NCBI RefSeq assembly: GCF_030219325.1
Contig: NZ_CP126625.1
Span: forward strand, 2,964,857 to 3,028,856
DNA from: Geothrix sp.
GTDB lineage: Bacteria; Acidobacteriota; Holophagae; Holophagales; Holophagaceae
Reading direction: 5' to 3'
DNA: 64,000 nt
Numbering within the stretch: the stretch's first letter is position 1; the number at the start of each line of letters is the position of its first letter. The notes under the pieces were generated by a model that saw nothing but the letters and a program-made list of their open reading frames with translations, had not been told where the DNA came from and made no database searches. Shown in pieces: positions 26,020 to 51,537 of the stretch. A program made the position numbers and the translations under genes.

Positions 26020-26271
26020 ACCTTGAAAGGCAGCCTGAAGCATCCTGGGACCAGCTATCGTGTGGATGGCCATCGGCGCACCCATTCGGTCATCTACCAG
26101 ACCGCCCGGGCGGACCTGCTGGGGCTGGTGAGCCTCGGCCTGCTGGAGCAGACCAAAGAAGGCCGGGCCTTCGTGTTCACCGCGCCACGGGATCTGTCCC
26201 GGCGCATGAAGGAACTTGCCGCTCAGAGCTTGAAGACATTTTCTCGATGCCAGCTCAGGAAATCGGCATGA
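26020..26271 (+). pseudogene. C-terminal remnant of a Fic-family protein
   Basis: A short piece reading LKHPGTSYRVDGHRR, then QTARADLLGLVSLGLLEQ and GRAFVFTAPRDL. This matches the winged-helix tail that follows the Fic domain in many AMP-transferring Fic proteins (QTARxDLLxLxxxGLLxxxxxGRAFxF). No Fic core (HPFxxGNGR) precedes it; instead the AddA-like gene ends 20 bases upstream. The last residues of the open frame run into the convergent HNH gene. I take it as the surviving end of a deleted gene. Assignment is from memory of the family pattern. Confidence 0.55.
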
Positions 26272-27154: not shown

Positions 27155-28708
27155 CTACCCCAACCCCGCCGTCCTGGCCAAGGTCAGCGACCCATCCCGG
27201 TTCGTCCCGGCACACGCCCAGGCCACGGGCCTTCGCTGGCCTTTCACCAGCAGCTCGGCTTTGAGGGTCAGGCCTTCCCAGGGGATGCCTCGGGGCAGGA
27301 GGAGGGAGGCCTGGCGGACGCCGCGGGTCATGGGGTAGCCGGGGTCGAGGCAGCCGGTGGCCAGGGGCTTGCCGTCGGCGGCGCACAGGGAGATCCGGAG
27401 CACGCCGGGGATGCAGGCCACGCCGTCGTTCACGAGGCCGAGCACCAGGCCGTGGCGCCCGTCCCGCTGGTAGGCCCAGATCCAGGAGGGGCGCACGCGG
27501 TAGCCGATGCGGCGGGCGGCGGCGTCGATGGCGGCGTGGGAGCGTTCGTAGCTCCGGAGCAGATGCTCGGCGGAGATGGCGTGGAAGTTCCACAGGGACC
27601 AGTAGTTCGCCCCCACGTCAAGCACGTGGGAGAGGGTGTTCTCGGTGCGCGGCGGCCCGCCCTTGGGATCCGGCGCATCCGGGTCCCCACTCAGGCCCGC
27701 TTCGCAGATGGCGGCGACCCAGGGCGGGCGGTTGGCGAGGGCCTCGATCTGCTCGTTCTCGATGAAGATGGTGTCGGTGCGCAGCCAGTTGTGGGTGCGG
27801 ATGGTGCGGTCCACCAGTTCCGAGTTGCCCACGCGGCTGAAATCAGGCTGGGTGTTCGTGGCCAGGGGCGTGCGCTTCCAGGCCCCCAGCTGGGCCTCGA
27901 ACATCGCCAGCCAGGTGGCCTCGGCGGTGGCGTTGTCCGGGAAGGGATGCCCCTCGTAGGGCCAGGTGTGGCCCTCGCCCCAGAACCCGTACATGAAGGT
28001 GTCCATGTATTCCACCTGGGGATGCCCATCCAGCTCCTGGGCCAGGAGCCCGTTCAGCTCCCGGAAGGCGGCCTGGTACTCGGGGTGGTCGTAGCGCGGG
28101 AGCTGGTTCAGGCCCTTGTTCCGGGGCAGCTCGGAGGGGCGCTCCCACTGCCCCTTGAGCGCCACCGTGGGGACCTTCGCTGCGAGGAAGGCCGGCATCC
28201 CCGGCTCGGGATGGTCGGGGTTCTCCAGCATCACGCGGAAGCCCACGCCCTTGCCGTAGCGCCGCGCCAGATCGAGGGTGGCCTTCCAGCCCTCGGGGAA
28301 GTCCAGCCGTCCAGGGCGCTGCTGGATGTCCCGCCAGTTGAGGCGGATGTAGACCTTCTGCGCGAAGGGCAGCCGGATGAGGTCCTCGAGGTACCGCTCC
28401 ACGGGCACGCCGTGGGTGCGAGGCGGCCAGAAGTCCCCGGACACATACACGGTGAGGCCCATGCCGGGGTTGGGGACGATGTCGGTGGATGGCAGGGTGG
28501 TCATCACCACCTCGCTGCCGGACAGCACCTCCTCCGGCGGGTACTGGGGGAACGGGCCCTGGTAGAGCCGGTCGGGGACCGCCGGGGGCGGCCCGAAGTC
28601 GTGTTTCTCCCAGGTGTGGCTGGGCACGAAGGCGGAGGCCGAGCGGGAGCCCAGTCCCGCCGCCAGGGCCGCCGTCCCCGCGGTCTTGAAAAAGTCGCGT
28701 CGTTTCAT
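27155..28708 (-). CDS. Tat-exported glycosidase-like TIM-barrel protein
   Basis: Exported protein of 517 residues. The N-terminus MKRRDFFKTAGTAALAAGL is a twin-arginine signal, so it is probably folded or loaded with a cofactor before export. The mature part has VYIRLNWRDIQQRPGRLDFPEGW, GVGFRVMLENPDHP and MDTFMYGFWGEGHTWPYEGH, a layout seen in GH5- or GH42-like barrels and in DUF4832-type proteins; Glu in FWGEGH and in IFIENEQ are candidate catalytic residues. The C-terminal 120 residues look like a beta-sandwich. The start at 28708 has AGGTGGA upstream. It is the last gene of the long minus-strand operon, 111 bases after the GH36-like gene. Substrate unknown. Confidence 0.65.
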   Translation of the reverse strand: MKRRDFFKTAGTAALAAGLGSRSASAFVPSHTWEKHDFGPPPAVPDRLYQGPFPQYPPEEVLSGSEVVMTTLPSTDIVPNPGMGLTVYVSGDFWPPRTHGVPVERYLEDLIRLPFAQKVYIRLNWRDIQQRPGRLDFPEGWKATLDLARRYGKGVGFRVMLENPDHPEPGMPAFLAAKVPTVALKGQWERPSELPRNKGLNQLPRYDHPEYQAAFRELNGLLAQELDGHPQVEYMDTFMYGFWGEGHTWPYEGHPFPDNATAEATWLAMFEAQLGAWKRTPLATNTQPDFSRVGNSELVDRTIRTHNWLRTDTIFIENEQIEALANRPPWVAAICEAGLSGDPDAPDPKGGPPRTENTLSHVLDVGANYWSLWNFHAISAEHLLRSYERSHAAIDAAARRIGYRVRPSWIWAYQRDGRHGLVLGLVNDGVACIPGVLRISLCAADGKPLATGCLDPGYPMTRGVRQASLLLPRGIPWEGLTLKAELLVKGQRRPVAWACAGTNRDGSLTLARTAGLG

Positions 28709-28819
28709 GAGTCCACCTGGTCGAGGAGAAATCACGCCATCCGAATCCGTCCCGATCCTGCTGCGATTTGAACCGCCCCGTCACGCGGCGCTGAGTGTTG
28801 GCGTTGCGTCAGTCACCCT

Positions 28820-30877: not shown

Positions 30878-30908
30878 GGCGGACTCCCGGAAAGGGCGGA
30901 ACCAGACG

Positions 30909-32027: not shown

Positions 32028-34087
32028 GGCGCCACCTCCAGCAGCAGATGATCCTTGAAGGCCACGGCCAGGCGCGGCGCCCTGCCCCGGACGGCCACCA
32101 CTTCGCCCAAGTCCCGGCCTTCGACGAGGTCCCGCACGCGATGGCGGCCGGGCTCCAGGCCCCGGAGCTCGACCCGGCCCTTCCAGGCGCCCGCCGCGAA
32201 GAACCCGTAGTGCATCCTGCCGTCGCGGGCGATGGCGTAGCCCTCCGGGCGGTCCACGCCCAGGGTGTACAGGTTCAGGAAGGTGCCGCTGGACAGGCGC
32301 TTCTCCCGGTAGAGGTCCAGCCACCGCCGCCAGACCGCGTTCTTGGCCGGACTGAGATCCACGGGGCCGGACCTGGGCACCTGGCCCGTGGGAGGCCACA
32401 CGAACTTGGTGCCCGGCACGCCACCGGCGCCCAAGGTGGAGGCGAAGTCCTCGCCGGTCTCCAGCCAGTCGTCCTTGCCGAGGGGCTTCATGACGCTCAG
32501 CTCCACGTGGTCCCCGTACACGGCGGCGGCGGGTCCCAGCAGGGCCTTATAGAGCTTGATGCGGCGCCGGACCTGGACCGCCCCCACGGGATCGGCGGTC
32601 ACGGCCTGGTCCATCCAGGGCAGCCAGGCCGCGGCGGGCGTGGTCCCGCAGGGGCAGATCTGGATCACCGCGCCGGGCTTCAAGGCATGGACGGCCGCCT
32701 GGATCTGCCGGTAGACCTCGGCGGCGGCCTGCGTGGATTCCAGGGGAGAGGCGTGGTGGTGTTTGGGATTGAAGCAGGGCGGAACGGCGAAGACGTTGTC
32801 CATCTTGAAGCCATCGAACCCGTCGTCCCGGATGAAGGCCACGGCCATGTCCCGAAAGTACGCCTGGACCTCCGGCAGGGACGGATCCAGCACCGCCAGG
32901 TCGCGGATCATGGTGGCGGGTTGGCCCTGTTCATCCAGCACCAGCCAGTCCGGATGGTCGCGCACCACCTGGGACTGGCGGTACTGGTGGGACTCGCCCT
33001 TGCCATTGGCGATCTCGGCGGCGATGGGCAGCCACCAGAGCTGCACCTTGATCCCGGCCCGGTGGTACTGGTCCACCATCGCCCTCAGGCTGTCGCCGGG
33101 GTAGGTGTCCGAACGGGCCTTCCAGTCGCCGTAGGCGTCGAACCAGCGGTCATCCAGGGTGGCCCAGCTGAGGCCCAGCTCTTTCAGCTTGGGCAGCACA
33201 CCGAGCATCTGGGCCGGGGTGATGTCGAAGCCATAGCCCCAGCTGCACCAGGTGGCCTCGTAGGCCTCGGCGTCCGCCGCCCCGGGCTTCCAGGCCGAGG
33301 GCGCCATGAGCCGCGACCAGAGGCTGACCGGTTCGAAGAAATCGCCCGGGTGGACCGCCAGGAAACACCAGGGGGAGGTCCAGGTCTCACCGGGTGCGAG
33401 GTTCCGGGCCGGGAAGGCCACGGCGGCGGCGGCGCGGCCATCCGGTGCCACCTGCACCGGCAGGGCGCAGGGGTCGGCGGACAGGCAGCCCAGCGCCTCT
33501 CCGCTGGCGGCATTCCAGAAGTCGATGACGGGGATTCCGCCGCCGACGCCGCCGGCGAGCATGTCCCCCAGCCTGTTCTCGGAGCGGCCGGGGCGGAGGC
33601 GCAGCACCTCGTCCTGGCCCCACCCCTTGCTGGTTCCCTGGAAGGACCACAGGCGACCCTTCGCGAACCGCGCCCGGAGGACATCAAGCTCGCCGGTGCT
33701 CTGCCTGGCGGCGGTGGGATTGGTCAGGCGCAGGGCGGCGAAGAGCACCCCGGGATGGCCCTCCCGAACCTCCAGGACGAGGGTCTTCGACACGGACCCG
33801 CTGCCGAGGCAGGGGATCTCCCAGTGGCTGCCCCCAGCGGAGCGCTGGGCCCGGCCCAGATCCAGGACGGGGACCTTGGCATCGCCGGCTCCCTTCATGG
33901 TGTCGGCAAGGGAAAGGCGCCGTCCATGCTGGAGCCGGGTGGCGGTGATGACGCCGGAGGGCAGCACCTGGAACTCCGCCGAGGGCGTCACCAGCCTGAG
34001 CGGCGGGCGGGCCGCCAGGGCCGTGGCCAGCAGGCCGAAGGCCACGGCCAGGATGCGTCGTCCTTCCATCCAGCGGAGCGCCTGCAT
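32024..34087 (-). CDS. GH36-like alpha-galactosidase/galactosaminidase, exported (copy B)
   Basis: Paralogue of the enzyme at 28820-30877, 687 residues, with a signal peptide (MEGRRILAVAFGLLATALAA). The barrel shows TWCSWGYGFDI, WATLDDRWFDAYGDW, DGFKMDNVF with nucleophile Asp near 427, IQICPCGT and VTADPVGAVQ with acid/base Asp near 497. The shared CPCG signature and PPCxNPxHHH stretch mark both copies as one subfamily. The start at 34087 has AGGGAGGT upstream; the longer frame to 34342 overlaps the transporter and is rejected. Two divergent copies suggest different linkages or chain positions. Confidence 0.8.
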   Translation of the reverse strand: MQALRWMEGRRILAVAFGLLATALAARPPLRLVTPSAEFQVLPSGVITATRLQHGRRLSLADTMKGAGDAKVPVLDLGRAQRSAGGSHWEIPCLGSGSVSKTLVLEVREGHPGVLFAALRLTNPTAARQSTGELDVLRARFAKGRLWSFQGTSKGWGQDEVLRLRPGRSENRLGDMLAGGVGGGIPVIDFWNAASGEALGCLSADPCALPVQVAPDGRAAAAVAFPARNLAPGETWTSPWCFLAVHPGDFFEPVSLWSRLMAPSAWKPGAADAEAYEATWCSWGYGFDITPAQMLGVLPKLKELGLSWATLDDRWFDAYGDWKARSDTYPGDSLRAMVDQYHRAGIKVQLWWLPIAAEIANGKGESHQYRQSQVVRDHPDWLVLDEQGQPATMIRDLAVLDPSLPEVQAYFRDMAVAFIRDDGFDGFKMDNVFAVPPCFNPKHHHASPLESTQAAAEVYRQIQAAVHALKPGAVIQICPCGTTPAAAWLPWMDQAVTADPVGAVQVRRRIKLYKALLGPAAAVYGDHVELSVMKPLGKDDWLETGEDFASTLGAGGVPGTKFVWPPTGQVPRSGPVDLSPAKNAVWRRWLDLYREKRLSSGTFLNLYTLGVDRPEGYAIARDGRMHYGFFAAGAWKGRVELRGLEPGRHRVRDLVEGRDLGEVVAVRGRAPRLAVAFKDHLLLEVAP

Positions 34088-34118
34088 GGGACCTCCCTTG
34101 AAGAAAACGGACCAGCCC

Positions 34119-35012
34119 TTACCCCTGCGCGGGGGCTTCGACTTCCTCCTCCAGGGCCATGAGCACCGTGGCGAGGATGGCCACGGCCATGCCCACGCCC
34201 TGGATGGCCAGGGGCATCGTCCGGTAGAGGACGAGCGAGATGAGGATGGTGACCACCGGCGCCCCGGCGTTGATGAGCGGGGACACGATGATGGCCCGGC
34301 CGTACCGGAAGGCGTAGACCAGCAGCAGCGCCCCGACGGCATTGAGCACCTGGATCAGGGCGGCCAGCCAGGGACCGCGGAAGCCCCAGTGGATGGGCTG
34401 CCGGAAATCAGTCATGAACCAGGCCACGGGGATCAGCAGGAGGCCCGTCACGGTCATGTAGAAGAAGATGCTCTCGGCCCGCATGGACTTGTTCCCGTGG
34501 GAGATGACGAAGCCCTGGAAACCCCAGGCCAGGAAGACCAGCAGGGCCAAGCCCACCCACAGCAGCCCCGCGCCGGCGCGACCCTCCGGCGGCGTGTAGG
34601 CCAGCAGGATCCCGGCCACCAGCGCCAGGGCGATGCCGATCCAGCCTTTGAGGGAGGCGCGCTCCCGGGAGACGATGAAGGCGAGGACGATGGTCACGAG
34701 GGGCGAGAGGGCGACGAAGGGGAACACCAGGTAGGCCGGCGCCAGGCGCAGCACCTTGAAGAGGATCAGCTGTCCCCCGGCGCCCAGGAACCCGGCCAGT
34801 CCGCCATAGAGGATCGACCGCGCGTCGGTCTCCACCTTCCAGCCCACCAGGGCCAGGGCCACCAGGCAGGGCGGGATCATGGTGAGGGCCCACACGATGT
34901 AGCCCAGGGTCTCGGGGAAGCCGGCCTTGGCGGGCGTGTCGATGAGGGCCCCCCACAGACCCCAGGCCAGGACCGTGATGACGGTGTAGAGGAACCAGCG
35001 CGGCTTGTTCAT
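34119..35012 (-). CDS. DMT-superfamily (EamA-like) permease
   Basis: Inner-membrane protein of 297 residues with about ten hydrophobic helices in two repeats, as in the drug/metabolite transporter superfamily (WGLWGALIDTPAKAGFPETLGYIVW; LRLAPAYLVFPFVALSPLVTIVLAFIVSRER; RYGRAIIVSPLINAGAPVVTILISLVLYR). It overlaps kbaZ by 4 nt and is followed closely by GH36 copy B, so it is the only inner-membrane transporter in the operon and probably carries the released monosaccharide. No PTS component accompanies it, so the sugar would arrive unphosphorylated. Substrate is inferred from context. Confidence 0.8.
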   Translation of the reverse strand: MNKPRWFLYTVITVLAWGLWGALIDTPAKAGFPETLGYIVWALTMIPPCLVALALVGWKVETDARSILYGGLAGFLGAGGQLILFKVLRLAPAYLVFPFVALSPLVTIVLAFIVSRERASLKGWIGIALALVAGILLAYTPPEGRAGAGLLWVGLALLVFLAWGFQGFVISHGNKSMRAESIFFYMTVTGLLLIPVAWFMTDFRQPIHWGFRGPWLAALIQVLNAVGALLLVYAFRYGRAIIVSPLINAGAPVVTILISLVLYRTMPLAIQGVGMAVAILATVLMALEEEVEAPAQG

Positions 35013-36319
35013 GAGCCTCCCTGTGCCACGGACATGGAAAGGCCACAGGCGGCGGCATAGTGCCCCAGCACCCTGCGGACGGAGTGGATGGCGAGGGCGC
35101 GGCCGCTGGGCCGGATGATCCCGGCGCGGACCGCATCGTACTCGCGGGGCCGGTACTGGCTGATCAGCTCGAGCGGAAGCGGCCCTTCCAACGTCCGGAA
35201 CAGGGCCTCCAGGGCCTCCCTCACGGCGGGATCGCCCCAGTAGTACCGGGAGCGGTCGCTCAGGCTGAAGCGCCGCGCGAAGGCCTGCTCGCCGGCCGTG
35301 CCATGGTGGTGGTCCTGCCAGTGGCCGGGCTCCCGGAGCATGGCCGCTTCCAGCGTCGCGGCCAGAGGTGGGCAGGAGTAGCGGGGGTTCCGGCCCTGGA
35401 GCTCGCGGGCAAGCTGCTCCAGCGAGAACACGGCTTCCCGGAAGGCGAAGGTGAGCCAGGGCCCAACCTTGAGGATGGCGAAGCGATCCTCCACCAGCTG
35501 GCGCAGGGCAGCGGGGCTCTGGTAGTCGGTGGAGTGAGCCTCGTACATCCAGGGCAGCCGGCGCGCGATGGCCCCGGTCAGCGGCGCCGCGGCGCCTCGA
35601 TCGTAGTCGTGGACGCTGGCCTCGCCGAACTCGACCCCGGGCTGGACCACCAGGGCCACGACCCGCTCCCAGGCCGACTCGAGGCCGAGCCTGGCGAAGG
35701 TGGCCTGGCTGAGATCCAGGGTGCGGGCCACGTCCGAAGGCGCCGTGGGCCGGAGGCCGGCCTCCTCTTCCACCGCGCCGCCGGGCATCGGGACTTCGGT
35801 GCCGATGACGTAGACCGGTGGCGGCCCCCCGCCCCGGCGACCATGGGCCTGCTCCGCCCGGAGGCAGAGTCTCCCCGCGCGTTCGGCGATGACGGCGTCG
35901 GGGAGGACGGCGGGATCGTCGGCGCAGCGCATGCTCGCGTCCAGGTGGATCTTGTGGAAGCCCGCGCTGACGTAGGCATCCACCAGCGCTTCGGCCTGCG
36001 CCATGGCGGCCGCGGCGGGTTGATTCCGCCAGGGATTCGGGCCCAGGTGGTCGCCGCCCAGGATGAGCCGGTCGCCGGGCAGGCCGGCCTCCCGGGCCAG
36101 GGTCTCCACGAAGGCCTTGAAGTCCGCGGGCGTCATGCCCGTGTAGCCGCCGGCCTGGTTCACCTGGTTGCAGGTGGCCTCGATCAGCACCGGGGAGGCG
36201 TCCTCCCGGGCCTGGTCCAGGGCGGCCCGCAGGACCACCGGGTGCGCCGAGCAGACCGAGTAAATGCCCCGCCCCGCCGCAGCGCGGCAGTCCTCCCGGA
36301 GCCGGAGGAGCTCAGACAC
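35009..36319 (-). CDS. kbaZ: D-tagatose-1,6-bisphosphate aldolase subunit KbaZ/GatZ
   Basis: 436-residue protein of the GatZ/KbaZ family, required for full activity and stability of the class II tagatose-bisphosphate aldolase. Typical segments are GIYSVCSAHPVVLRAAL, VLIEATCNQVNQAGGYTGMTP, ILGGDHLGPNPWR and FHKIHLDASM. A GTG at 36319 is used as start, overlapping the aldolase gene by 8 nt, which suggests coupled synthesis of the two subunits. It is placed between the catalytic subunit gene and the permease. Whether gat or kba naming applies is a matter of context; the adjacent agaS favours kba. Confidence 0.9.
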   Translation of the reverse strand: MSELLRLREDCRAAAGRGIYSVCSAHPVVLRAALDQAREDASPVLIEATCNQVNQAGGYTGMTPADFKAFVETLAREAGLPGDRLILGGDHLGPNPWRNQPAAAAMAQAEALVDAYVSAGFHKIHLDASMRCADDPAVLPDAVIAERAGRLCLRAEQAHGRRGGGPPPVYVIGTEVPMPGGAVEEEAGLRPTAPSDVARTLDLSQATFARLGLESAWERVVALVVQPGVEFGEASVHDYDRGAAAPLTGAIARRLPWMYEAHSTDYQSPAALRQLVEDRFAILKVGPWLTFAFREAVFSLEQLARELQGRNPRYSCPPLAATLEAAMLREPGHWQDHHHGTAGEQAFARRFSLSDRSRYYWGDPAVREALEALFRTLEGPLPLELISQYRPREYDAVRAGIIRPSGRALAIHSVRRVLGHYAAACGLSMSVAQGGS

Positions 36320-37157: not shown

Positions 37158-38094
37158 GGTTGAAGCGCTCCTTGGCGATGGCCTGGAGGCCCGCCCGGTC
37201 GGTGAACGCCCCGGTGCCTCCGGCGGCGGTGGTGGAGATGGCCCCCATGAGGTTGCCGAAGCGCAGGCACTCCTCCAGGCTCTTCCCTTCGATGAAACAG
37301 GAGACGAACCCGGCGTCGAAGCTGTCCCCGGCGCCGATGGCGTCCACCACGTCCCGGTTCAGGAAGGGCGGGCAGGACAGGATCCTGCCGTCCGCCATGG
37401 CCTGGGCGCCCTGGTTCCCCTGTTTCACCACCACGGTATGCGCGAAGGGGCGCAGCGAGTCCAGGGCCGTTTCGACATCCGGCTTCCGGGTCAGGTTCAG
37501 GAGCTCCTGCTCATTGGGCAGGAAGACGTCCACGTAGGGGAGGATGTCGGGCAGGTCGAGATCCCAGGCTTCCGCCGGATCCCACTGGGGATCGAAGGAC
37601 GTGGTGAGACCACACTCCTTCGCCCGCCGGAACAGGTTCCCCACGTCGCCCCGCAGCCCCGGCTGGAGGAACGCGGAGGCGAAGTGCATGTGGCGGGAGG
37701 TGCGCAGCCGGTCGACCTGGATGTCGGCAAGCGTGAGGTGGGCCATCGCCCCCATGTAGGTGACCATGGCCCGGTCCTCGCCCCGGTTGAGGACGATGGT
37801 GGCACCCGTGGCGTGATCGGAGGTCCGGCGGATCATGGCCGCATAGACCTTCTTGTCACGGAGGCTGTTCACGGCCAGGTCGCCGAACAGGTCTTCGCCC
37901 ACCTTGCCCAGGAAGGCGACCTTGGCGCCGATGCTGCTCAGGTTGCTGGCGAAGATGGCGGAGGAGCTGCCGAGCGTGAGCGTCATGGCTTCCGCCAGGA
38001 TCTCCTTGCCGACCTCCGGCATTCGGGGGAGGCCGTTCAGGATCAAATCGACGTTGAGTTCGCCGACGACCAGCACATCAAAGTTGGATTCCAT
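37147..38094 (-). CDS. PfkB-family sugar kinase, probable tagatose-6-phosphate kinase
   Basis: Ribokinase-fold kinase of 315 residues. It has the N-terminal VVGELNVDLILNGLP with the later GSSSAIFASNLSSIGAKVAFLGKVGED segment and the C-terminal ATP-site motif AIGAGDSFDAGF carrying the catalytic Asp. In the pathway it should phosphorylate tagatose-6-P at carbon 1 before the aldolase step. ATG at 38094 is chosen for its GAGGT site; the open frame runs 96 codons further upstream into agaS without sense. The family also includes kinases for free sugars, so it could instead make the first phosphorylation, in which case the second kinase is missing. Confidence 0.87.
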   Translation of the reverse strand: MESNFDVLVVGELNVDLILNGLPRMPEVGKEILAEAMTLTLGSSSAIFASNLSSIGAKVAFLGKVGEDLFGDLAVNSLRDKKVYAAMIRRTSDHATGATIVLNRGEDRAMVTYMGAMAHLTLADIQVDRLRTSRHMHFASAFLQPGLRGDVGNLFRRAKECGLTTSFDPQWDPAEAWDLDLPDILPYVDVFLPNEQELLNLTRKPDVETALDSLRPFAHTVVVKQGNQGAQAMADGRILSCPPFLNRDVVDAIGAGDSFDAGFVSCFIEGKSLEECLRFGNLMGAISTTAAGGTGAFTDRAGLQAIAKERFNHAF

Positions 38095-38119
38095 GCCTGG
38101 GACCTCGTTCTTGGCTGCA

Positions 38120-39298
38120 TCAAAGGGGATCGTGGGCCCGGGGGTAGATCGTGACGCCCTGCACGACGCGGGAGATGCTGCCGCAGGGTGAGGGGTTGTC
38201 GGGGCTGAGCCCCTGCGCGATGGAGAGCTCCACCCCGAGGACCTGCGCCACCAGGACGCCGCAGATGGCCCGCTCCTCGTCGCGGAGCAGGCCCTCCTCG
38301 TCGAGGGTGATGGTGGCCTCGGGGCCCTCATGGGGCGCGAGGCCCGCGCCCACGCCCAGGCGGAAGCAGCCCAGGTTTCCATCCCGAATCTCTTTCACGA
38401 GGTCCTGCTCATAGGCTTTCTGGCCGGGCCGGCCCGAGAAGAGGAAGACGACGAGGGTCTCCGCATCGATGGCGGCCTTGGGGCCGTGCCGGAATCCCAG
38501 GAAGGAATCGTAGGAGCACATCACGGATCCGTTCGTGAGTTCCTGGACCTTGAGGTGGCACTCCCGCGCGGCCCCCTTCAGGGCCCCGGCCCCGAGGAAG
38601 ATGGCTCGGCGGACGCCCAGCCGGGCCAGCTCGCGGAACCGTCCGCCCTCGCTGGAAAGGAGGCGCTCGGCCGCGGCGGCCATGAGCCGGACGCGGGAAC
38701 CCTGGTACTCCAGGCAATCCAGGTCGGCCATCAGCATTCCGGCCAGGGCCATGCTGGTGAAGCTGCCGGTCATGGCCAGGCCCTTGTCATCGGCCGCCGG
38801 GGGCAGGACGAAGACGGCGCGGGGGTGCTTCGTCGGATGCTTCGCGAGGTCTCCGCCGGGGTTGCAGGTGATGATCAGGTGCCTCACGTCGCTGAGGCAC
38901 TCGTCCGCCCGGTCGAGGGCCGCGATGCTCTCGGGGCTGTTGCCCGACCGGCCGAAGGAGATGAGCAGGGTCGGGACATCCTGGGCGAAGCACTCCTCGG
39001 GATTGGTCACGATGTCCGTGGTCGGAACGGCCCGCACGCAGCGCTTCAGGCGGCGGCTGTAGCAGCCCTGGAGCAGCTCTCCAATGAAGGCGGAGGAGCC
39101 AGCCCCCGTCAGCACCACTTCCCGGTCGGAGGCCTGGAGCGCTTCGGTCATGAACGCCTTCAGGTCCTTCGCTTCCCAGCGGAGCCCCTCCCAGGTGGCC
39201 TGCCAGAGCGCCGGCTGCCCGAGGATTTCCGGAATGGTGTGGACCGCGCCGAGGGAGGGTCGTGACGGTGGGGCGAAAGTCGAAAACGCGGCGCTCAT
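38120..39298 (-). CDS. agaS: SIS-domain galactosamine-6-phosphate deaminase/isomerase AgaS
   Basis: Cytoplasmic protein of 392 residues with two SIS domains. VVLTGAGSSAFIGELLQG, ISFGRSGNSPESIAALDRA, YDSFLGFRHGPKAAID and CGSISRVVQGVTIYPR match the AgaS family, which turns galactosamine-6-P into tagatose-6-P and ammonia (older name tagatose-6-phosphate ketose/aldose isomerase). It is the first cytoplasmic enzyme gene of the operon, 25 bases before the kinase. The companion deacetylase AgaA, needed when the substrate arrives as GalNAc-6-P, is absent from the window, which implies that galactosamine itself enters the cell or that AgaA is elsewhere. Confidence 0.88.
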   Translation of the reverse strand: MSAAFSTFAPPSRPSLGAVHTIPEILGQPALWQATWEGLRWEAKDLKAFMTEALQASDREVVLTGAGSSAFIGELLQGCYSRRLKRCVRAVPTTDIVTNPEECFAQDVPTLLISFGRSGNSPESIAALDRADECLSDVRHLIITCNPGGDLAKHPTKHPRAVFVLPPAADDKGLAMTGSFTSMALAGMLMADLDCLEYQGSRVRLMAAAAERLLSSEGGRFRELARLGVRRAIFLGAGALKGAARECHLKVQELTNGSVMCSYDSFLGFRHGPKAAIDAETLVVFLFSGRPGQKAYEQDLVKEIRDGNLGCFRLGVGAGLAPHEGPEATITLDEEGLLRDEERAICGVLVAQVLGVELSIAQGLSPDNPSPCGSISRVVQGVTIYPRAHDPL

Positions 39299-39352
39299 GC
39301 CTGAAAACTCCAGAAACCTGCAGGTTGGACCCCATCGGGCCCGCTTGATCGT

Positions 39353-39934
39353 CTAGAACCGGTAGGATCCCATGAGGCTGAAATAGGAGGGCCGGCTGGG
39401 GTTGGTCGCATCCACGGGCAGGTCGGGATTGCTGCGCCACTCGGTGAAGGTGTAGTTCAGGGATACCGCCCAGTGCTCGGAGAGGTCATACCCCAGCCCC
39501 ACGCGCCAGCCCAGCTTGATGTGCTGATCGGCGGGGTAGAGGCTCGGGTCGCCCCCCTTCTGGTCCGCCTTCCAGATGTGGAAGGAGGGCCCCACCCGCA
39601 CCGTGAAGGGCTGCGAGTCCCAGGGCTGGTAGACCAGCTCCGCGCCCAACCGGGGGCTGTTCAGCGTGAAGGTCGGCCGGTCCACCGTTCCTTCAGCCGC
39701 GGGGATGTGGGCATAGCCGAGATAGACCTGGATCTTCGGTCCGAAGTTCTCCGGGTTGAACAGGGCCCCGGCCTCGACGGTGTAGCCGCCAGTGGTCTTC
39801 CGGGTGAGATCGACCGTGTTCCCCTGGTTGATGAGGAGCCCGGCGGAAGCCGTGTACTTCGTATCCCCGGCGCGGGCCGGGCCAGCCAGGGCCAGAGCCA
39901 GCACGCCCGAAAGCAAGACTTTGGAAAGGTGCAT
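39353..39934 (-). CDS. Small outer-membrane beta-barrel protein
   Basis: 193-residue protein with a signal peptide (MHLSKVLLSGVLALALAGPARA) and alternating beta strands (AELVYQPWDSQPFTVRVGPSFHIW; LGWRVGLGYDLSEHWAVSLNYTF), ending in an aromatic YFSLMGSYRF typical of an eight-stranded barrel. ATG at 39934 has AGGAGGAGA upstream. It lies 16 bases after the TonB receptor gene and 54 bases before agaS, inside the glycan operon. It could be a small porin or adhesin-like barrel; no specific family was recognised. Confidence 0.7.
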   Translation of the reverse strand: MHLSKVLLSGVLALALAGPARAGDTKYTASAGLLINQGNTVDLTRKTTGGYTVEAGALFNPENFGPKIQVYLGYAHIPAAEGTVDRPTFTLNSPRLGAELVYQPWDSQPFTVRVGPSFHIWKADQKGGDPSLYPADQHIKLGWRVGLGYDLSEHWAVSLNYTFTEWRSNPDLPVDATNPSRPSYFSLMGSYRF

Positions 39935-39950
39935 GGGGTCTCCTCCTGGC

Positions 39951-42900
39951 CTAGAACCGGATGCCTGTATCAAGGGTGATCACCCGGCCTGGGATGCGAC
40001 CCGTCCCCACCGTCGAGAGATCGTCTGCGGCGCGCCAGCCGTGCCCGGTGAACTGATGCGGCTGCCCCGCGGTGTCCGTCAGGCTCGTGCCGCCAAGGCT
40101 GTACGGCCCCATGGACTTGGTGTTGAAGATGTTGTTGATGTTCATGTCGCAGAACCACCTCACGGTGCGCAGGACCGTGATCTCGAGGTTGTACTTCAAC
40201 CCGATGGTCGTGATGCTCGTGTTCGTCATCCGTCCGCCATCGGCGGCGACGGCCAGGGAGTTCGGCAGTCCGCCCGTGTTCTGGTTGTTCGTGTCGTTGT
40301 AGCCCGGGACGGTCGGGAAGGGGATGTTGTAGTTGATCCATCGCGCTTCAGGCTTGCCGCTGGTGTAGTTCGCCCGCAGCGTGACGTTGGATTTCACCTT
40401 CCCGGAGCTCACGTCGAACACCGCGAACAGGTTCAGGTTGTGCTCGGGCGTGCGCAGCGTGGTGGGGTTGTACTGGTCCCGGGTGAACAGCGTGTTGTAG
40501 TAGTCGCGGAAATTGGCCAGCTGGCTCGTGGTGCGGTCCGGATTGTCGAGCGAAGGGCGGGTGTTGGCCGTCATCCGGGCGTAGGTGTAGTTGCCGTAGA
40601 TGGTGGCGCGCCGGCTCAGGGGGAGCATCCACTCGAGTTCGGCGCTCTTGTAGGTGCGCTGCGAATCGGGGTCGTTTCTCAGTATCCGCTTGAAATTCGG
40701 GGAACCGGAAGGGTCCGTGTAGACCGGACCGGGGAAGAAGTCGAAGAGGTTCGACCAGGTCTTGTAGACCGCCGTCGCCCGCCAGTAGCCCCCCGCCGTG
40801 TAGGAGCGGCGGAAGCCCATGGTGATCTCGGTGGAGACGGGATTCTTCCAGGACTTGTCGATCTCGAAAGTGTCGCCGGCGTAGGTGCGGGAATAGGCGG
40901 TGTAGTTGTTCTTGTCGAGGAGCTGGTTGTAGGACACGTAGTAGGGGGTCGAGGAGCCCTGGCTCCAGTAGTACACGGTCTGGTCGCCCAGGCGGCCATG
41001 GGCCATCGGGAGGAACAGCGAGCCCGGGGAGCTGGCCTGGAACTGGCCGTAGGACAGATTGAAGAGGCGGGACTGGTCCCCCGAGACGTCCCACTTGTAC
41101 TCGAACCGGGGATTCAGGTGCCCGTACGACACGAAGGTGCTGAAGTCGTCGTTCACCTTGAACATGTCGTAGCGGAGCCCCAGCATCACGCTGTGGTTCT
41201 TGTTGATGGTCCAGAGGTCGTTGATCCAGTAGGCGTGGGTCGTCTTCTGGAAGTTCCCGCCCTCGGCCCCCGTGCGGCTCACCCACGTGGGGATGAGGCC
41301 CAGGCCGCCCGGGAAGTGGTTGTCCGATCCGGGCGCCCCGATGCCGGGGTTCACCAGGCCGTCGCTCAGCACGGGCGTGTTCGCCGCCGTCGGATCCAGG
41401 TCCTGCAGGGTGGCCGTCGCGGCGTTGTAGACGAGGTACTGGCCCGTGAGCGGATTCTGGCCGGGGACGATGTACTGGTCCTTGGCCGCGCCCACCTGGA
41501 TTCCCCACTTGAACTTCTCGACGTCGAAGCCCATGTCCAGCTGGTGGGAGCTGTCCCCCTGGGAGAACACGTGGGCGTAGTTCACGATGGCCGAGTCGTT
41601 CAGGATCGTGTCGCCCTTGTCGGCGTTGTAGCCGTTGGTGTTGTAGGCGACGCCACCGGAGGCGTACCCATCCAGCAGGCTCGTGACGGGTGAACCGTCC
41701 GCGTGCTCGCCGGGGATGAACGTGGTCCAGATGGGCGGCTGGCCGGGGCTGTAGGGATGCGGCCAGGTGCGGTAGGTGTGGCCGACCCGGGCCTCCAGGA
41801 CGCCTGCGTTGCCGATCAGGCCCTTGTACCCGAGATTCCACAGGTGGTGGTGGTAGTTGTCCGTCCCCGACGAGGTCACGCTGTCGATGCGGCCGAAGCG
41901 CGGGAGCCCCCAGTAGGCCTCGCTGTCGTTCTGCGTGTAGTTCCACTCCAGGCTGTGGTCCGGATTGATCTGGGCGAAGAGCACGAACTGGTGGAACTTC
42001 GACGTGTCCTTGAGCGTATCCAGCCCGCCGAGGGCGTAGGTGTTGGCGGGGGCGATCCCGGTGCCGGGAACGTAGGTGAAGGTTGATTGGCTGGGCAGCC
42101 CGTTCAGGGTGGTGAGCCCGACCACCGAGGTGTAGGAATAGGTCGGCGTCTGCTGGGTGCCGTAGGCGAAGGTGATGTGATCCTTCCAGATCGGGCCCCG
42201 CAGCGACAGCTCGTAGGTGCGGTTGGGGAAATCGTCGTTGGGGTAGACCGGGTCCCCGGCAGAGCCGTCCCGCCTCGGGTACGAGGTGTTGTTGTCCTGC
42301 CAGTAGTTCTTCCGGTACTTGATGCGGGCCGTGCCCGTGAAGGTGTTGCTGCCCCGGGTGGTCACGATGGAGACGAGGCCGCCATCCGTGTTCCCGTAGC
42401 GCGCGTTGAGGGGCGACTGGATCACCGCCATGGTGTCGACCAGGTCCATGAGGGTCGTCAATTCATTCAGGTAGCCGCCACCTTCCTCGGTGATGTTCAG
42501 GCCGTTCTGGATGACCTTGGTGCTGTGCTGGATGCCGCCCCGGATCGAGATGGCGTCATCGCCGTACCCGCCGACGTTGGGATCCAGGATCCCGGTGATC
42601 CCCGGCGACAGGACGAGGATCGAATCCAACTCCTGGCTCGCGAGCTGGTTGAGGTTCTCCATGGAATAGGTCGAAGCCGTGGTGGTCGTGGTCTTGTCCA
42701 CCTGGGCCGCCTGGTCGATGACCTCCACGGTCGCCCCCTGTTCGGCCACGGCGGGGAGGATCACGTCCTGCCGGGCCGTCTGGCCGGGCACCACCTGGAA
42801 CTCGCCCTTGACGGTCATGAAGCCGCCGGCCGAGACCGTGATCGTGAACTTGCCGTTCGGCAGGATGGCGAGCCGGTACTGGCCCTTCTCGTTGGTGGTG

Positions 42901-43073
42901 GTGGTCCGTTCCCCCAGCAGATTCGGGGAGACGAGGCGCACGAGCGCGCCCACGATGGGTTTCCCGGTCTTCCCGGTGACCAGGCCCACCGCGGTGCCGG
43001 TCGTCTCCTGGGCCAGCAGGGGAGCGGCGGCCAGGAGCAGCATGAGAGGCGTGAACTTGCTTCGGTGCAGCAT
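39951..43073 (-). CDS. TonB-dependent receptor with carboxypeptidase regulatory-like domain
   Basis: Outer-membrane transporter of 1040 residues, probably importing a glycan fragment. A signal peptide (LMLLLAAAPLLAQ) is followed by a regulatory-like beta-sandwich (about 25-110, GKTGKPIVGALVRL, NEKGQYRLAILPNGKF), a plug domain (about 130-260, LDSILVLSPGITGIL, GDDAISIRGG) and the barrel, ending TLDTGIRF with terminal Phe. This is the oar-like layout common in Acidobacteriota; no SusD-type lipoprotein is next to it. It is the second gene of the long operon, so uptake, cleavage and catabolism are co-expressed. Confidence 0.9.
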   Translation of the reverse strand: MLHRSKFTPLMLLLAAAPLLAQETTGTAVGLVTGKTGKPIVGALVRLVSPNLLGERTTTTNEKGQYRLAILPNGKFTITVSAGGFMTVKGEFQVVPGQTARQDVILPAVAEQGATVEVIDQAAQVDKTTTTTASTYSMENLNQLASQELDSILVLSPGITGILDPNVGGYGDDAISIRGGIQHSTKVIQNGLNITEEGGGYLNELTTLMDLVDTMAVIQSPLNARYGNTDGGLVSIVTTRGSNTFTGTARIKYRKNYWQDNNTSYPRRDGSAGDPVYPNDDFPNRTYELSLRGPIWKDHITFAYGTQQTPTYSYTSVVGLTTLNGLPSQSTFTYVPGTGIAPANTYALGGLDTLKDTSKFHQFVLFAQINPDHSLEWNYTQNDSEAYWGLPRFGRIDSVTSSGTDNYHHHLWNLGYKGLIGNAGVLEARVGHTYRTWPHPYSPGQPPIWTTFIPGEHADGSPVTSLLDGYASGGVAYNTNGYNADKGDTILNDSAIVNYAHVFSQGDSSHQLDMGFDVEKFKWGIQVGAAKDQYIVPGQNPLTGQYLVYNAATATLQDLDPTAANTPVLSDGLVNPGIGAPGSDNHFPGGLGLIPTWVSRTGAEGGNFQKTTHAYWINDLWTINKNHSVMLGLRYDMFKVNDDFSTFVSYGHLNPRFEYKWDVSGDQSRLFNLSYGQFQASSPGSLFLPMAHGRLGDQTVYYWSQGSSTPYYVSYNQLLDKNNYTAYSRTYAGDTFEIDKSWKNPVSTEITMGFRRSYTAGGYWRATAVYKTWSNLFDFFPGPVYTDPSGSPNFKRILRNDPDSQRTYKSAELEWMLPLSRRATIYGNYTYARMTANTRPSLDNPDRTTSQLANFRDYYNTLFTRDQYNPTTLRTPEHNLNLFAVFDVSSGKVKSNVTLRANYTSGKPEARWINYNIPFPTVPGYNDTNNQNTGGLPNSLAVAADGGRMTNTSITTIGLKYNLEITVLRTVRWFCDMNINNIFNTKSMGPYSLGGTSLTDTAGQPHQFTGHGWRAADDLSTVGTGRIPGRVITLDTGIRF

Positions 43074-43103
43074 GGACCTATCTCCTTTACCTGTTCCCGG
43101 TGC

Positions 43104-43889
43104 CTAGATCTTCACTGCGAGCCCGAACTCGAAGACGAACCCACGATGGGTGCTCTCCAGAAGGACGGGGCTCTGGCCTGTGTAGGTGAAGGGCCTGTAG
43201 TCGAAGTGCGTGGTGCTGATGTTGCGGATGGTGAACTCGAACTTGAGGTTGTCGGACAGCGGTACGCCCACCCCGGCCAGCAGCCCCACTCCGGGCTTCG
43301 TCTTCTCCTTCACGAAGGCCCAGCCTTCGTAGTAGTCGCTCCCCGGGGCATTGGGATCCAGCACCGGTGCCGGCGAGGCGGAACCGTACATCGGGATGAG
43401 CGTGCCGCTCATCTCGGCGCTGACCTTGTAGAGGTCCAGGCTCACCCCCGCGAACCAGTACCAGCCCCCCAGGTCCGGGAACGCGTCCGAGTAGGTGCCC
43501 CGGAGGCTGAACCCCTGGCTTTGTTCCTTCCGGAAGTCGATGGAGTTCGTCTGGCTCAGGAAAAGGGGATTCCCCTGATAGGTGGTGGCCGGGCTCTGCG
43601 GGTTGTAGAAGACGGCCCCGCCGGTCGGCATGACGTCGCGGGCCTGGCCCGGGAAATGGTCGAACCCGAATTCCACCGAAAACGCGCGCGCCCCTCCCAG
43701 GGGCCAGCGGCCGCCCACTCCGAATCCGAAGGCCTGGTGGCTGTTCTGGTCCTGACTCAGCGTCCCCGCCGTGAGCGCCCCCTTGACCTTGAAATCGAAG
43801 GTCGGGTCGCCCTCGGCCGCGGACAGCGTGAGGACCGACCAGCCGGCCACCGCGAGAACAAGCCTGGGAAGTGGTTTCTGGACCTTCAT
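43104..43889 (-). CDS. Outer-membrane beta-barrel protein, first gene of the glycan operon
   Basis: 261-residue exported protein with a signal peptide (MKVQKPLPRLVLAVAGWSVLTLSA) and amphipathic beta strands (GFGVGGRWPLGG; WYWFAGVSLDLYKVSAEM; VGLLAGVGVPLSDNLKFEFTIRNI), ending STHRGFVFEFGLAVKI. ATG at 43889 has GGAGG upstream and gives a normal signal peptide; a longer frame to 44018 covers the promoter region and is rejected. It is 30 bases from the TonB receptor gene. No family recognised; it may help substrate binding or entry. Confidence 0.7.
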   Translation of the reverse strand: MKVQKPLPRLVLAVAGWSVLTLSAAEGDPTFDFKVKGALTAGTLSQDQNSHQAFGFGVGGRWPLGGARAFSVEFGFDHFPGQARDVMPTGGAVFYNPQSPATTYQGNPLFLSQTNSIDFRKEQSQGFSLRGTYSDAFPDLGGWYWFAGVSLDLYKVSAEMSGTLIPMYGSASPAPVLDPNAPGSDYYEGWAFVKEKTKPGVGLLAGVGVPLSDNLKFEFTIRNISTTHFDYRPFTYTGQSPVLLESTHRGFVFEFGLAVKI

Positions 43890-44036
43890 GGTGGGCCTCC
43901 GTGAGCAGGCGAAAGGACTGGGCAGGACCGGGAGTGGCTGGATGCGGGGGAAGCTGAATGGGAAGTCGAGGGTGGGGCGCAGGGCAATTGATCTAATTCG
44001 AATCGAATATTTGTTCATCTTTGCAGCATTTTTAGC

Positions 44037-44064
44037 AGTATCGAGCAGAAAGCGACAGTGTCAA
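44037..44064 (-). promoter_or_regulatory. Candidate sigma-70 promoter of the glycan operon
   Basis: On the minus strand, a perfect -35 TTGACA (44059-44064) is followed after 16 bases by GATACT (44037-44042), four of six matches to the -10 consensus. It would start transcription near 44030, about 140 bases before the first gene of the operon. The region is sharply more AT-rich than its surroundings. Confidence 0.55.
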
Positions 44065-44084
44065 TTTTATTTTGTGTTATTTTT
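44058..44084. promoter_or_regulatory. Direct repeat, possible DeoR operator
   Basis: GTGTCAATTTT (44058-44068) and GTGTTATTTTT (44074-44084) match at 9 of 11 positions with a 16-base period. The first overlaps the -35 of the divergent operon and the second ends 5 bases before the DeoR-family start. DeoR-type repressors such as AgaR often bind tandem repeats, so this is a reasonable operator candidate, without proof. Confidence 0.35.
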
Positions 44085-44089
44085 GGGGC

Positions 44090-44851
44090 ATGCGCCAAGA
44101 AGAACGTCTCGGTCTCATCCTCGACCGGCTGTCCAGGAAGGGCACCTTGGGTGTCGCTGACCTCGCGGCTGAGCTCGGCGTGTCCACGGCCTCGGTCCGT
44201 CGGGATCTGGAAGTACTCGAAGAACAGCACCTTCTCTCACGCACCCACGGCGGGGCGGTGGCCAACACCCTCGCCTACGAACTGCCGCTGCGCTACCGGG
44301 GGGGCCGCCAGAAGGAGGAGAAGCGGCGCATCGCCGCCATGGCGGTCGCACGGCTCGGCGAGGGGATCGTCTCCCTGGGGCTCACCGGCGGCACCACCAC
44401 CACGGAGGTGGCCCGGGCCCTCGCGAACCTGACGGGGCTCACCATCGTCACCAACGCCCTCAACATCGCCTCGGACCTCGCCATGCGTCCGAACCTGAAG
44501 CTGATCGTGACCGGCGGGACGGCCCGGAGCGAATCCTACGAGCTGGTGGGCCCCCTGGCCGAGGCGAGCCTGGAGGGCCTGCACCTGGACCTGGCCATCG
44601 TCGGCGTGGATGGCATCAGCGCCAAGGGCGGCCTCACGACCCACCACGACGTGGAGGCGCACACCAACCGCGCCCTCATCGAACACGCCCGGCGCGTCAT
44701 CGTCGTGGCCGATGGCTCCAAGGTCGGGCGCATGGCCTTCGCCCGCATCTGCCCCATCACCGAAGTGCATGAGCTCATCACCGACGACCAGGCGGATGCC
44801 GACGAGCTGGAACGCCTTCGCGAGGCGGGCATCACGGTGACCATCGCCTAG
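44090..44851 (+). CDS. DeoR/GlpR-family transcriptional regulator
   Basis: 253-residue repressor-type regulator. The N-terminal helix-turn-helix (MRQEERLGLILDRLSRKGTLGVADLAAELGVSTASVRRDLEVLE) is the DeoR signature, followed by the HGGAV linker and a sugar-phosphate-sensing domain (SLGLTGGTTTTEVARAL, LDLAIVGVDGISAKGGLTT). It is divergent from the 12-gene glycan operon and 41 bases upstream of the deacetylase-like gene. By analogy to AgaR it should sense a phosphorylated amino sugar or tagatose phosphate and repress both sides. ATG at 44090 is chosen over an upstream TTG. Confidence 0.9.
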   Translation: MRQEERLGLILDRLSRKGTLGVADLAAELGVSTASVRRDLEVLEEQHLLSRTHGGAVANTLAYELPLRYRGGRQKEEKRRIAAMAVARLGEGIVSLGLTGGTTTTEVARALANLTGLTIVTNALNIASDLAMRPNLKLIVTGGTARSESYELVGPLAEASLEGLHLDLAIVGVDGISAKGGLTTHHDVEAHTNRALIEHARRVIVVADGSKVGRMAFARICPITEVHELITDDQADADELERLREAGITVTIA

Positions 44852-44892
44852 CCGACCGAGGCGCGATACCCCAGTCCATGGAGGGAACGACC

Positions 44893-46437
44893 ATGCCGAA
44901 CCGCCCCGGGATCCCAGGCACGAAGACGTGGATCATGCTGCTCGCCCTGGCGGCGGCGCGGGCCCTCACCGGGCAGCCGGCCCCGCAGATCCAGTTCCCG
45001 AGGCCCTTCGCCGTGGTGGTGGATGATCTCGGCTGGATGCATGGGGGCTCCCAGGATCCTGCGAACGGTCCCTATCGCATCGGGTTCAAGCGGGACATGG
45101 TGGCCCAGGACTACCTCCCCATGATCCAGATCGGCCAGGCCGTCGGCGTCCGCATCCAGGGCGTCTTCGTGCTCGGCGAGCTGGACCGGGAGAACGCCGT
45201 GGCCAAGCTGCCCTCGGCCACCCGGGAGGGGAGCAAGTGGGACAACACGGCCAACGTCTCCCCCGAACAGCTGAGGATCATGGAGACGGTCAAGGCCCAA
45301 TCGGCCTTCCTGGAGTTCGGCCTCCATGGCGTGGGCCACGAGTACTGGGAGAACGGCCGCCGCCGCCGCGCGGAGTGGTACAACCTGCAGGACAAGCGCC
45401 CCTGGACCGAGGCGGAGATCCGGGCCCACCTGGACATGTTCAGGACGATCATGGCCCAGTACGGACTTTCGAAGGAGAACGGCCACTCGTTCCCGGAAAG
45501 CTTCGTGCCCACGGCCTACAGCTACTTCTGGAACCCCTCGGCCAAGCCGTACAGCCTGGGCAAAATCCTCCGCGAATATGGCGTGCGATACGCCAACACG
45601 GCCTTCTCGGAGATCCCCCAGCTGCATCCCCCGGCGCAGGGGTCGGGCGGCTTCGACAACGGCGTCCTCGTCCTGGACCGGCACAACTTCGGCAACGAGT
45701 GGTGGGAACCGGCCACCCTCCCCCGCCAGCCCATCTCAGCCTTCGACACGGACATCATCGAGACGCACTGGGTCAACCTCCTCGCCACGGATGACATCTT
45801 CCAGGCCTCGGTCAACGCCAAGTGGATCGCCCTGCTGCAGGCCGTCCAGGCCGAGGAGGGACGCTACCTGGCCAAGAACACCGAGCAGCTCTACTCCCAG
45901 TGGCTCTACAAGCGGCATTGCAAAGTCTCGGAGCCGGAGCCGGGCCGGGTGCTCATCGATGCCCGCCCCATGCCCCAGGATGCCTTCGATGCCGGCATGG
46001 TCGGCCCCCTGGTCCTGAAAGTCAGGCTCCCGAAGGGAACCCACCTCTCCCGGGCGACCCTGGACGGTCAGCCGATCCCCTCCATCCAGGAAGTCCAGGG
46101 ATTCGCCCATCTCTACCTGCCGGCGATCCCCCGGGGCATCGCCGAATTGCGGTACGGATTCGGGGACCATCTCCCCGAGCTCACCGTCATCAATGACGGG
46201 ACCTACCTCGTCTACGCCCGGGCCCTGAGCGGGACATCCGCGCGCTTCAAGATGCGCGTGTATGGCGAACAGGCTGTGGCCATCACCACCGCCTCCAGGC
46301 CGAGCTCCGTGACCTGCTCCAATCCCCGGCTCAGCGTGCGCGAAGTCAGGTTCAACAGGGAATCCGGGATGACCACCGTGGTCCTGCAGGCCCATGACAT
46401 CCAAGGCGAAACGGGAGAACTCATCCTGGGGTTCTAG
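44893..46437 (+). CDS. Exported polysaccharide-deacetylase-like protein
   Basis: 514-residue protein with a signal peptide (TKTWIMLLALAAARALTGQ). The mature N-terminus FAVVVDDLGW and the later FLEFGLHGVGHEYW give an Asp-Asp and His-xxx-His arrangement like the metal site of NodB/DUF2334-type deacetylases. A second part (about 340-510, VLKVRLPKGTHLSRATLDG) looks like beta-sandwich modules. ATG at 44893 has GGAGGG upstream. It follows the DeoR gene and faces the glycan operon across the shared promoter region. I infer removal of acetyl groups from GalNAc-containing glycans; it could act on another acetylated sugar. Confidence 0.6.
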   Translation: MPNRPGIPGTKTWIMLLALAAARALTGQPAPQIQFPRPFAVVVDDLGWMHGGSQDPANGPYRIGFKRDMVAQDYLPMIQIGQAVGVRIQGVFVLGELDRENAVAKLPSATREGSKWDNTANVSPEQLRIMETVKAQSAFLEFGLHGVGHEYWENGRRRRAEWYNLQDKRPWTEAEIRAHLDMFRTIMAQYGLSKENGHSFPESFVPTAYSYFWNPSAKPYSLGKILREYGVRYANTAFSEIPQLHPPAQGSGGFDNGVLVLDRHNFGNEWWEPATLPRQPISAFDTDIIETHWVNLLATDDIFQASVNAKWIALLQAVQAEEGRYLAKNTEQLYSQWLYKRHCKVSEPEPGRVLIDARPMPQDAFDAGMVGPLVLKVRLPKGTHLSRATLDGQPIPSIQEVQGFAHLYLPAIPRGIAELRYGFGDHLPELTVINDGTYLVYARALSGTSARFKMRVYGEQAVAITTASRPSSVTCSNPRLSVREVRFNRESGMTTVVLQAHDIQGETGELILGF

Positions 46438-46497
46438 CGGGAACGCCCGTTCGCCTCCGGGCCGGTTCTCTCTCATGCTGGAGGGTGGGGGATTCCG

Positions 46498-51366: not shown

Positions 51367-51442
51367 GATCCGGACTTGCCTCGTGGCCCACAAACACGAA
51401 GAGGGAGCAAGAGGCTATCCGCAGTGCCATCGGGCTTCCACG

Positions 51443-51470
51443 CATGTGGCCGCCCGATGGCGGCCACATG
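51443..51470. terminator. Strong hairpin between convergent genes
   Basis: Perfect 12-base-pair stem CATGTGGCCGCC / GGCGGCCACATG around CGAT, between the UvrA-like gene (+) and the secreted-protein operon (-). There is no T tract on either side, so its role as a terminator is likely but not proven. The rest of 51367-51537 holds no gene. Confidence 0.45.
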
Positions 51471-51537
51471 GAATGGAACGGCTTGGAAGGTCATAGCCCG
51501 GTGATAACGGACTTTCCGTCCACCTCTACCGTTCAGA

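Follow-up and report, generated by a model that had tools for sequence, protein, structure and literature searches.

An operon for the probable use of alpha-linked galactosamine glycans in a Geothrix chromosome

How could a bacterium use galactosamine (GalN) or N-acetylgalactosamine (GalNAc) from glycans if its chromosome encodes no recognizable NagA or AgaA deacetylase? This question is raised by an operon of Geothrix sp. (contig NZ_CP126625.1) which lies in a window of 64,000 bases (2,964,857-3,028,856 of this one contig, which is 3.73 Mb long; positions below are those of the window). The operon consists of 12 minus-strand genes, running from 43889 down to 27155, and two plus-strand genes are divergent from it, one for a DeoR regulator (44090-44851) and one for an exported protein, P0006 (44893-46437). 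We consider it probable that this operon, itself probably acquired horizontally, serves the use of alpha-linked galactosamine glycans, a reading which draws on gene content and homology.

The original prediction, made from the same DNA, had described this arrangement with gaps of at most about 110 bases and many overlaps, and it is borne out by the coordinates and by the Pfam and NCBIfam families. The successive gaps are 111, 31, -4, 31, -4, -8, -11, 25, 54, 16 and 30 bases (negative values being overlaps, with gene starts picked by eye), i.e., the largest gap is 111 bases and four gene pairs overlap. The families found are the AgaS family, PfkB, class II aldolase, KbaZ, EamA, TonB plug, two GH36-like (Melibiase), Amidohydro_2 and DeoR, and P0001, P0005 and P0006 gave no Pfam family above cut-off in the Pfam scans of the window proteins. 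Export leaders and signal peptides were judged by eye throughout. For comparison we used a sample of 297 genomes of the phylum, in which this genome is denoted G000 and the others likewise.

Galactosaminidase-type GH36 proteins

Two exported proteins of the operon, P0002 (28820-30877, minus strand) and P0004 (32024-34087, minus strand), belong to the GH36 clade of FpGalNase, the galactosaminidase of Flavonifractor plautii, by PDB match, active-site residues and tree. Both match FpGalNase (PDB 9awt), with E values of 2.9e-75 for P0002 and 1.1e-63 for P0004, and the next PDB entries are classical alpha-galactosidases at 5e-19 (6lcj) and 5.5e-9 (3mi6). The best PDB match of P0002 is 8x1b, which is labelled an alpha-galactosidase; because its printed sequence is almost identical to that of 9awt, it is probably FpGalNase under a different name. 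Nine active-site residues of FpGalNase are named in a cryo-EM paper, according to which the mutations D463A, C513A and D532A each leave almost no activity and C513 and D532 are not conserved in a classical alpha-galactosidase (PMC11762096; this and all papers below are cited from excerpts). Eight of the nine, i.e., W317, D346, D347, W387, K461, D463, C513 and D532, are kept in both P0002 and P0004.

Both proteins also carry a CPCG motif, which had been taken in the original prediction as the mark of an unusual GH36 subfamily and which proves to be specific to the FpGalNase clade. Its second cysteine, and likewise C513, is present in each of the 13 GalNase-type rows that have data there, that of FpGalNase among them, and is absent from the 21 other GH36-like matches. 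The same 13 rows form a clade apart from the 21 in the tree (support 97/99), within which P0004 groups with FpGalNase itself and two G211 proteins (support 96/93), although FpGalNase forms a long branch, the position of which is unsure. A 14th row (G211c) is truncated and was omitted from the tree and the residue counts, and the row G211a has F at the position of D347. Among the best three candidates per genome of the P0002 search, P0004-type GH36 is seen in two of the 297 genomes, G000 and G211.

The same residues bear on a rival explanation, by which P0002 and P0004 would be plain alpha-galactosidases and galactose would be used via tagatose-6-phosphate with AgaS as an isomerase. This explanation can point to the solved AgaS-family chains, which are labelled putative tagatose-6-phosphate ketose/aldose isomerases, to the score of AgaS below its curated cut-off and to the label of 8x1b. 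However, both P0002 and P0004 retain C513 and D532, the mutation of which nearly inactivates FpGalNase (PMC11762096), and agaS knockouts of E. coli block the use of GalN as well as GalNAc (PMC3668189). We regard plain alpha-galactosidases as very improbable here.

Galactosaminidase-type GH36 and AgaS also occur together across the phylum. Using thresholds picked after the lists were seen (E < 1e-100 for GalNase-type GH36 among the best three candidates per genome in the P0002 search; E < 1e-40 for AgaS among the best six), the former was found in nine of the 297 genomes, the latter in 27 and both in seven. AgaS is present in 7/9 GalNase-type genomes vs. 20/288 others (Fisher p 7.5e-7, uncorrected for kinship), or in 6/7 if G164 and G104, whose GH36 lacks K461, are excluded, and each of the six GalNase-type families has both genes in at least one genome. 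Single loci hold KbaZ, GH36, DeoR, PfkB and AgaS in G084 and PfkB, AgaS, KbaZ and GH36 in G156, and most contigs of G242, G104 and G211 are below 10 kb, which is too short to judge linkage. The GalNase-type GH36 of G221 is part of a frame of 1304 residues (L050:12308-16219), another region of which is hydrolase-like and matches GHL6 and GHL10, both below their cut-offs.

Galactosamine catabolism, uptake and regulation

AgaS, PfkB, KbaY and KbaZ had been assigned beforehand to galactosamine-6-phosphate catabolism, and the families stand, whereas the kinase turned out to be of ribokinase type rather than LacC-like. P0007 (38120-39298, minus strand) is a putative GalN-6-phosphate deaminase/isomerase of the AgaS family (TIGR02815, 361 bits, cut-off 529), the best PDB matches of which are AgaS-type chains (3odp, E 9.2e-73). 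P0010 (35009-36319, minus strand) is a putative KbaZ/AgaZ, with 564.5 bits to PF08013 (above cut-off) and 563.4 bits to TIGR02810 (cut-off 568.8), and P0011 (36312-37157, minus strand) is a KbaY-like class II aldolase, with 289 bits to PF01116 and a score above cut-off for TIGR00167.

The kinase P0008 (37147-38094, minus strand; PF00294) has ribokinase as its best NCBIfam match (131 bits, below that family's own cut-off of 299.65). A LacC-type tagatose-6-phosphate kinase was rejected for it (TIGR03168, 43.8 bits vs. a cut-off of 216.4; TIGR01231 not listed), as was, for the genome, a canonical hexosamine kinase of the ROK or BadF family, since neither has a match there. P0008-type kinases are found in 18 of the 23 AgaS loci examined (15/20 plus this window, G084 and G156); these represent 23 of the 27 AgaS genomes (G163, G036, G225 and G195 being left out), and missing neighbours say little in G211 and G242, the contigs of which are very short. 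Among the 18 loci, six have a second kinase of LacC/1-PFK type (three recognized by NCBIfam scan and three by clustering and tree), eight have KbaZ, and none has both, an exclusion with p 0.011 if the loci are independent, which was cross-checked by tblastn and in which related families recur. Two papers treat AgaZ (KbaZ) as the enzyme that phosphorylates tagatose-6-phosphate, a role in which LacC or Pfk can replace it (PMC4694137, PMC12118421). If this holds, the P0008-type kinase common to these loci would be left for galactosamine, suggesting that P0008 phosphorylates galactosamine and that tagatose-6-phosphate falls to KbaZ or LacC. The term "galactosamine kinase" for the PfkB family is absent from the literature examined, which is a part of the relevant papers.

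The absence of AgaA, which the original prediction had stated for the locus, extends to the whole chromosome: the best NagA/AgaA match reaches 23.4 bits, the cut-off being 225.65. Among the matches listed, NagA is essentially missing from two of the nine GalNase-type genomes (G000 with 23.4 bits and G221 with 36.2), and intermediate or fragmentary matches are seen in G104 (164 bits), G211 (150) and G282 (86.5). A general loss of NagA from GalNase-type genomes was rejected, two of the nine having listed matches above the cut-off and two just below it. The further statement that a phosphotransferase system (PTS) is lacking holds for the operon, where Pfam scans found none; a genome-wide PTS search was not made.

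Import of galactosamine could fall to P0009 (34119-35012, minus strand; PF00892), an EamA-family permease. EamA proteins 51-53% identical to it adjoin AgaS and two kinases in G041, G253 and G277, three genomes of one family that are NagA-less among the matches listed. An Asparaginase_2 family protein lies near AgaS in G277 (L151:4947-6119) and has relatives in G041 and G253; this family includes glycosylasparaginases. At the outer membrane, the operon provides a TonB-dependent receptor with carboxypeptidase-regulatory and plug domains, P0013 (39951-43073, minus strand; PF13620, PF07715), a small beta-barrel protein, P0012 (39353-39934, minus strand; PF13505), and P0005 (43104-43889, minus strand), a weak outer-membrane beta-barrel match (PF13505, 18.4 bits, below the cut-off of 28.7).

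The DeoR-family regulator, P0014 (44090-44851, plus strand), matches PF00455 and PF08220. In the divergent promoter region, a sequence at 44061-44084 (plus strand) differs by three mismatches from what we take to be the AgaR-box consensus and is its sole match in the window, which suggests a regulator site. Its score was equalled in 41 of 4000 local Markov simulations and in one of 4000 plain shuffles, and seven pieces of sister loci contained no site with at most three mismatches.

Candidate deacetylases and the proposed pathway

Which protein, then, might remove the acetyl groups? P0006 (44893-46437, plus strand) had been called deacetylase-like by eye, a claim that gains from profile-profile comparison as to a NodB/DUF2334 type and fails as to a sequence match with a solved deacetylase. 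P0006 alone has no Pfam or NCBIfam match, and in a plain Pfam search one of the four members of its family matched DUF2334, at E 0.1. A four-row P0006 profile compared with 26 DUF2334 sequences (30 rows less four that were out of frame or had fewer than 200 residues once trimmed) gave a hhalign probability of 90.9% (E 1.1e-6), with D50, H150 and H154 in register; these residues form a D...HxxxH metal triad of NodB/DUF2334 type. In the controls, the highest probability was 2.2% for seven alignments of other families, several with just two or three rows, and 0.3% for 20 column shuffles, while the reversed alignment gave 0.5%. Membership in the FpGalNAcDeAc family was set aside because PDB sequence searches, to E 10 with P0006 or its four-row profile, gave no deacetylase, the inclusion of the FpGalNAcDeAc chain being unconfirmed.

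Relatives of P0006 are rare, occurring in three of the 297 genomes (G000, G211 and G274) and in Desulfoluna limicola. Two genomes, G000 and G211, encode P0006-type together with P0004-type proteins, and it is in these two that the P0006 homologue has an export-like leader; the chance that labels of three and two genomes coincide thus in 297 is 7e-5, with genomes taken as independent and in a post hoc comparison. In Desulfoluna (L009:7389-11149) and G274 (L016:277-3605), a homologue with no evident leader follows a FemAB/GNAT-like gene and adjoins a PP2C-type-phosphatase-like gene (by eye), the three-gene set being shared by these two distant genomes.

Alternatively, the deacetylase could be P0003 (30909-32027, minus strand; PF04909, 82 bits), an exported Amidohydro_2 protein. 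A leaderless Amidohydro_2 clade (58-82% identity within) lies in the AgaS/PfkB loci of six genomes (G251, G105, G155, G233, G094 and G179); P0003 is an exported relative of it at 31-36% identity, a farther relative (28%) occurs in the G103 locus, and in G211 the gene for an exported relative and that for the P0006 homologue diverge from each other. However, all six genomes of the leaderless clade have NagA above cut-off, and there is no NCBIfam match and, for P0003 and one clade member, no informative PDB match. We know of no sugar deacetylase in Amidohydro_2, and P0003 in place of P0006 seems unlikely.

A further alternative is that the natural substrate is already mostly acetyl-free, e.g., a partly deacetylated alpha-1,4-GalN/GalNAc polymer, from which the GH36 enzymes would remove GalN while P0006 would be accessory or act on another polymer. 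Acetyl-poor candidates include polymers of the bacterial Pel type beside fungal galactosaminogalactan. Deacetylation of the latter is known (PMC4817252, PMC7229062), and five genomes (G084, G156, G221, G242 and G104) have GalNase-type GH36 and AgaS with no P0006 homologue. Against this stand the position of P0006 beside the operon, the homologue that accompanies P0004-type GH36 in G211 and the lack of any endo-galactosaminidase family in the Pfam scans, although P0001 could be an endo-enzyme. We rate an acetyl-free substrate as rather doubtful. P0001 (27155-28708, minus strand), exported with a leader of twin-arginine translocation type, has no Pfam and no PDB match and is remotely GH42/DUF4832-like, with a hhalign probability of 95.6% to a G281 protein that matches both DUF4832 and GH42, compared with 0.3% or less in four control alignments. 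Its homologue in G221, 54% identical, adjoins the GH36 gene.

In the pathway that we favour for alpha-linked galactosamine glycans, the TonB receptor P0013 would bring oligosaccharides into the periplasm, where P0006, as a NodB/DUF2334-type metal deacetylase, would strip acetyl groups if the sugar is GalNAc. P0004 and P0002 would free GalN from the non-reducing end, with P0001 and P0003 acting on the remainder of the glycan; deacetylation before release is a plausible order. The permease P0009 would import GalN, P0008 or a housekeeping glucokinase would phosphorylate it at C6, and AgaS would deaminate the product to tagatose-6-phosphate, which KbaZ/KbaY would phosphorylate and then cleave. The divergent DeoR regulator would repress the operon. 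A bolder version, which we put forward tentatively as a possibility, is that one acquired block holds a full deacetylate-first pathway for GalNAc glycans in which two enzyme functions would be new: P0006 would found a family, separate from FpGalNAcDeAc, of NodB/DUF2334-type enzymes that are exported and deacetylate GalNAc glycans, and the AgaS-linked ribokinase-type PfkB would be a galactosamine 6-kinase, so that PTS and AgaA would be unneeded.

Several observations weigh against the favoured pathway. At the enzymes, FpGalNase Y464 is replaced by G in P0002 and by N in P0004, and K461 has given way to Y in three GH36 rows (G164, G104 and G156b, the last being one of two from G156), the function of which may differ owing to this residue. 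AgaS (P0007) and KbaZ (P0010) score below their curated NCBIfam cut-offs, phosphorylation of GalN could fall to a glucokinase that the genome encodes, and the KbaZ/LacC pattern comes from few families and from stretches of about 8 kb per side, some of them shorter. An AlphaFold2 model of P0006, built from two rows, is unusable (predicted local distance difference test score, 32). In other genomes, NagA scores above the cut-off in G084 (328.4 bits) and G164 (290) and just below it in G156 (225.3, 0.35 bit short) and G242 (224.4), the latter two both within 1.3 bits; the sister core loci of G084 and G156 have no P0006 homologue; and the GalNase and AgaS genes of G221 are on separate large contigs.

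Origin of the block and comparison with known systems

The whole stretch from 25973 to 46444 has no counterpart in the congener G304, in which the match of addA stops at 25972 and that of uvrA starts at 46445, the addA-uvrA interval being 20.5 kb here vs. about 0.8 kb there. In a DNA search with window positions 33000-52000, eight of 25 other genus genomes match most of uvrA at 74-88% (among the matches listed), and the longest match listed for the operon part is 1.4 kb at 63% inside the TonB-receptor gene (G308). In the phylum sample, the 20 other genomes of the genus all lack a homologue of P0006, a GH36 of GalNase type and an AgaS below 1e-40, the weak matches being a GH36 at 1.5e-8 (G212) and an AgaS at 9.4e-4 (G244). 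Gain is the simplest reading of this distribution, and the operon was probably gained horizontally by this lineage.

Because the same interval of G106 (L101:6389-16198) holds about 9.8 kb of DNA that does not match the window, insertions may recur between addA and uvrA. A gene for an HNH_2 endonuclease-domain protein (26223-27113, minus strand) belongs to the stretch missing from G304 and is close to the addA end of it. The adjacent UvrA (46498-51366) has 1622 residues and many ATPase-domain matches, the usual length being about 940 residues, and short matches to it occur elsewhere in the genome (C1:3560692-3563358).

The closest parallel is the pair FpGalNAcDeAc and FpGalNase of F. plautii, which converts type A red cells to type O (PMC11762096). 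The original prediction had drawn this parallel. The likeness consists of the GH36 clade, the catalytic residues and a co-encoded deacetylase-like protein; it is one of homology for GH36 and one of logic only for the deacetylase. We note the differences: P0006 has no sequence match to a solved deacetylase, there are two GH36 paralogues in which Y464 is replaced, and a TonB receptor, a permease and catabolic genes are joined to them in one operon. With the E. coli aga/gam regulon, comprising AgaR, AgaS, KbaYZ, AgaA and a PTS (PMC3668189, PMC4694137), the locus shares a DeoR-type regulator, the AgaS family, a KbaY-like aldolase and a putative KbaZ, whereas there is no AgaA/NagA in the genome and no PTS in the operon, which has instead a permease of the EamA family and a kinase of ribokinase type. 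The non-PTS GalNAc pathway of Shewanella, with the permease AgaP and the kinase AgaK (PMC12118421), is similar in its outer-membrane transporter and in a permease and a kinase that replace the PTS; here, however, the genome has no AgaA/NagA and no ROK/BadF kinase, and the likeness of the permease and kinase is one of role. We regard the locus as a variant of a known pathway. It offers two divergent galactosaminidase-type proteins of the FpGalNase clade with a different candidate deacetylase, an account of possible galactosamine use with neither PTS nor AgaA, and a proposed substrate for a PfkB kinase type that recurs in AgaS loci of the phylum.

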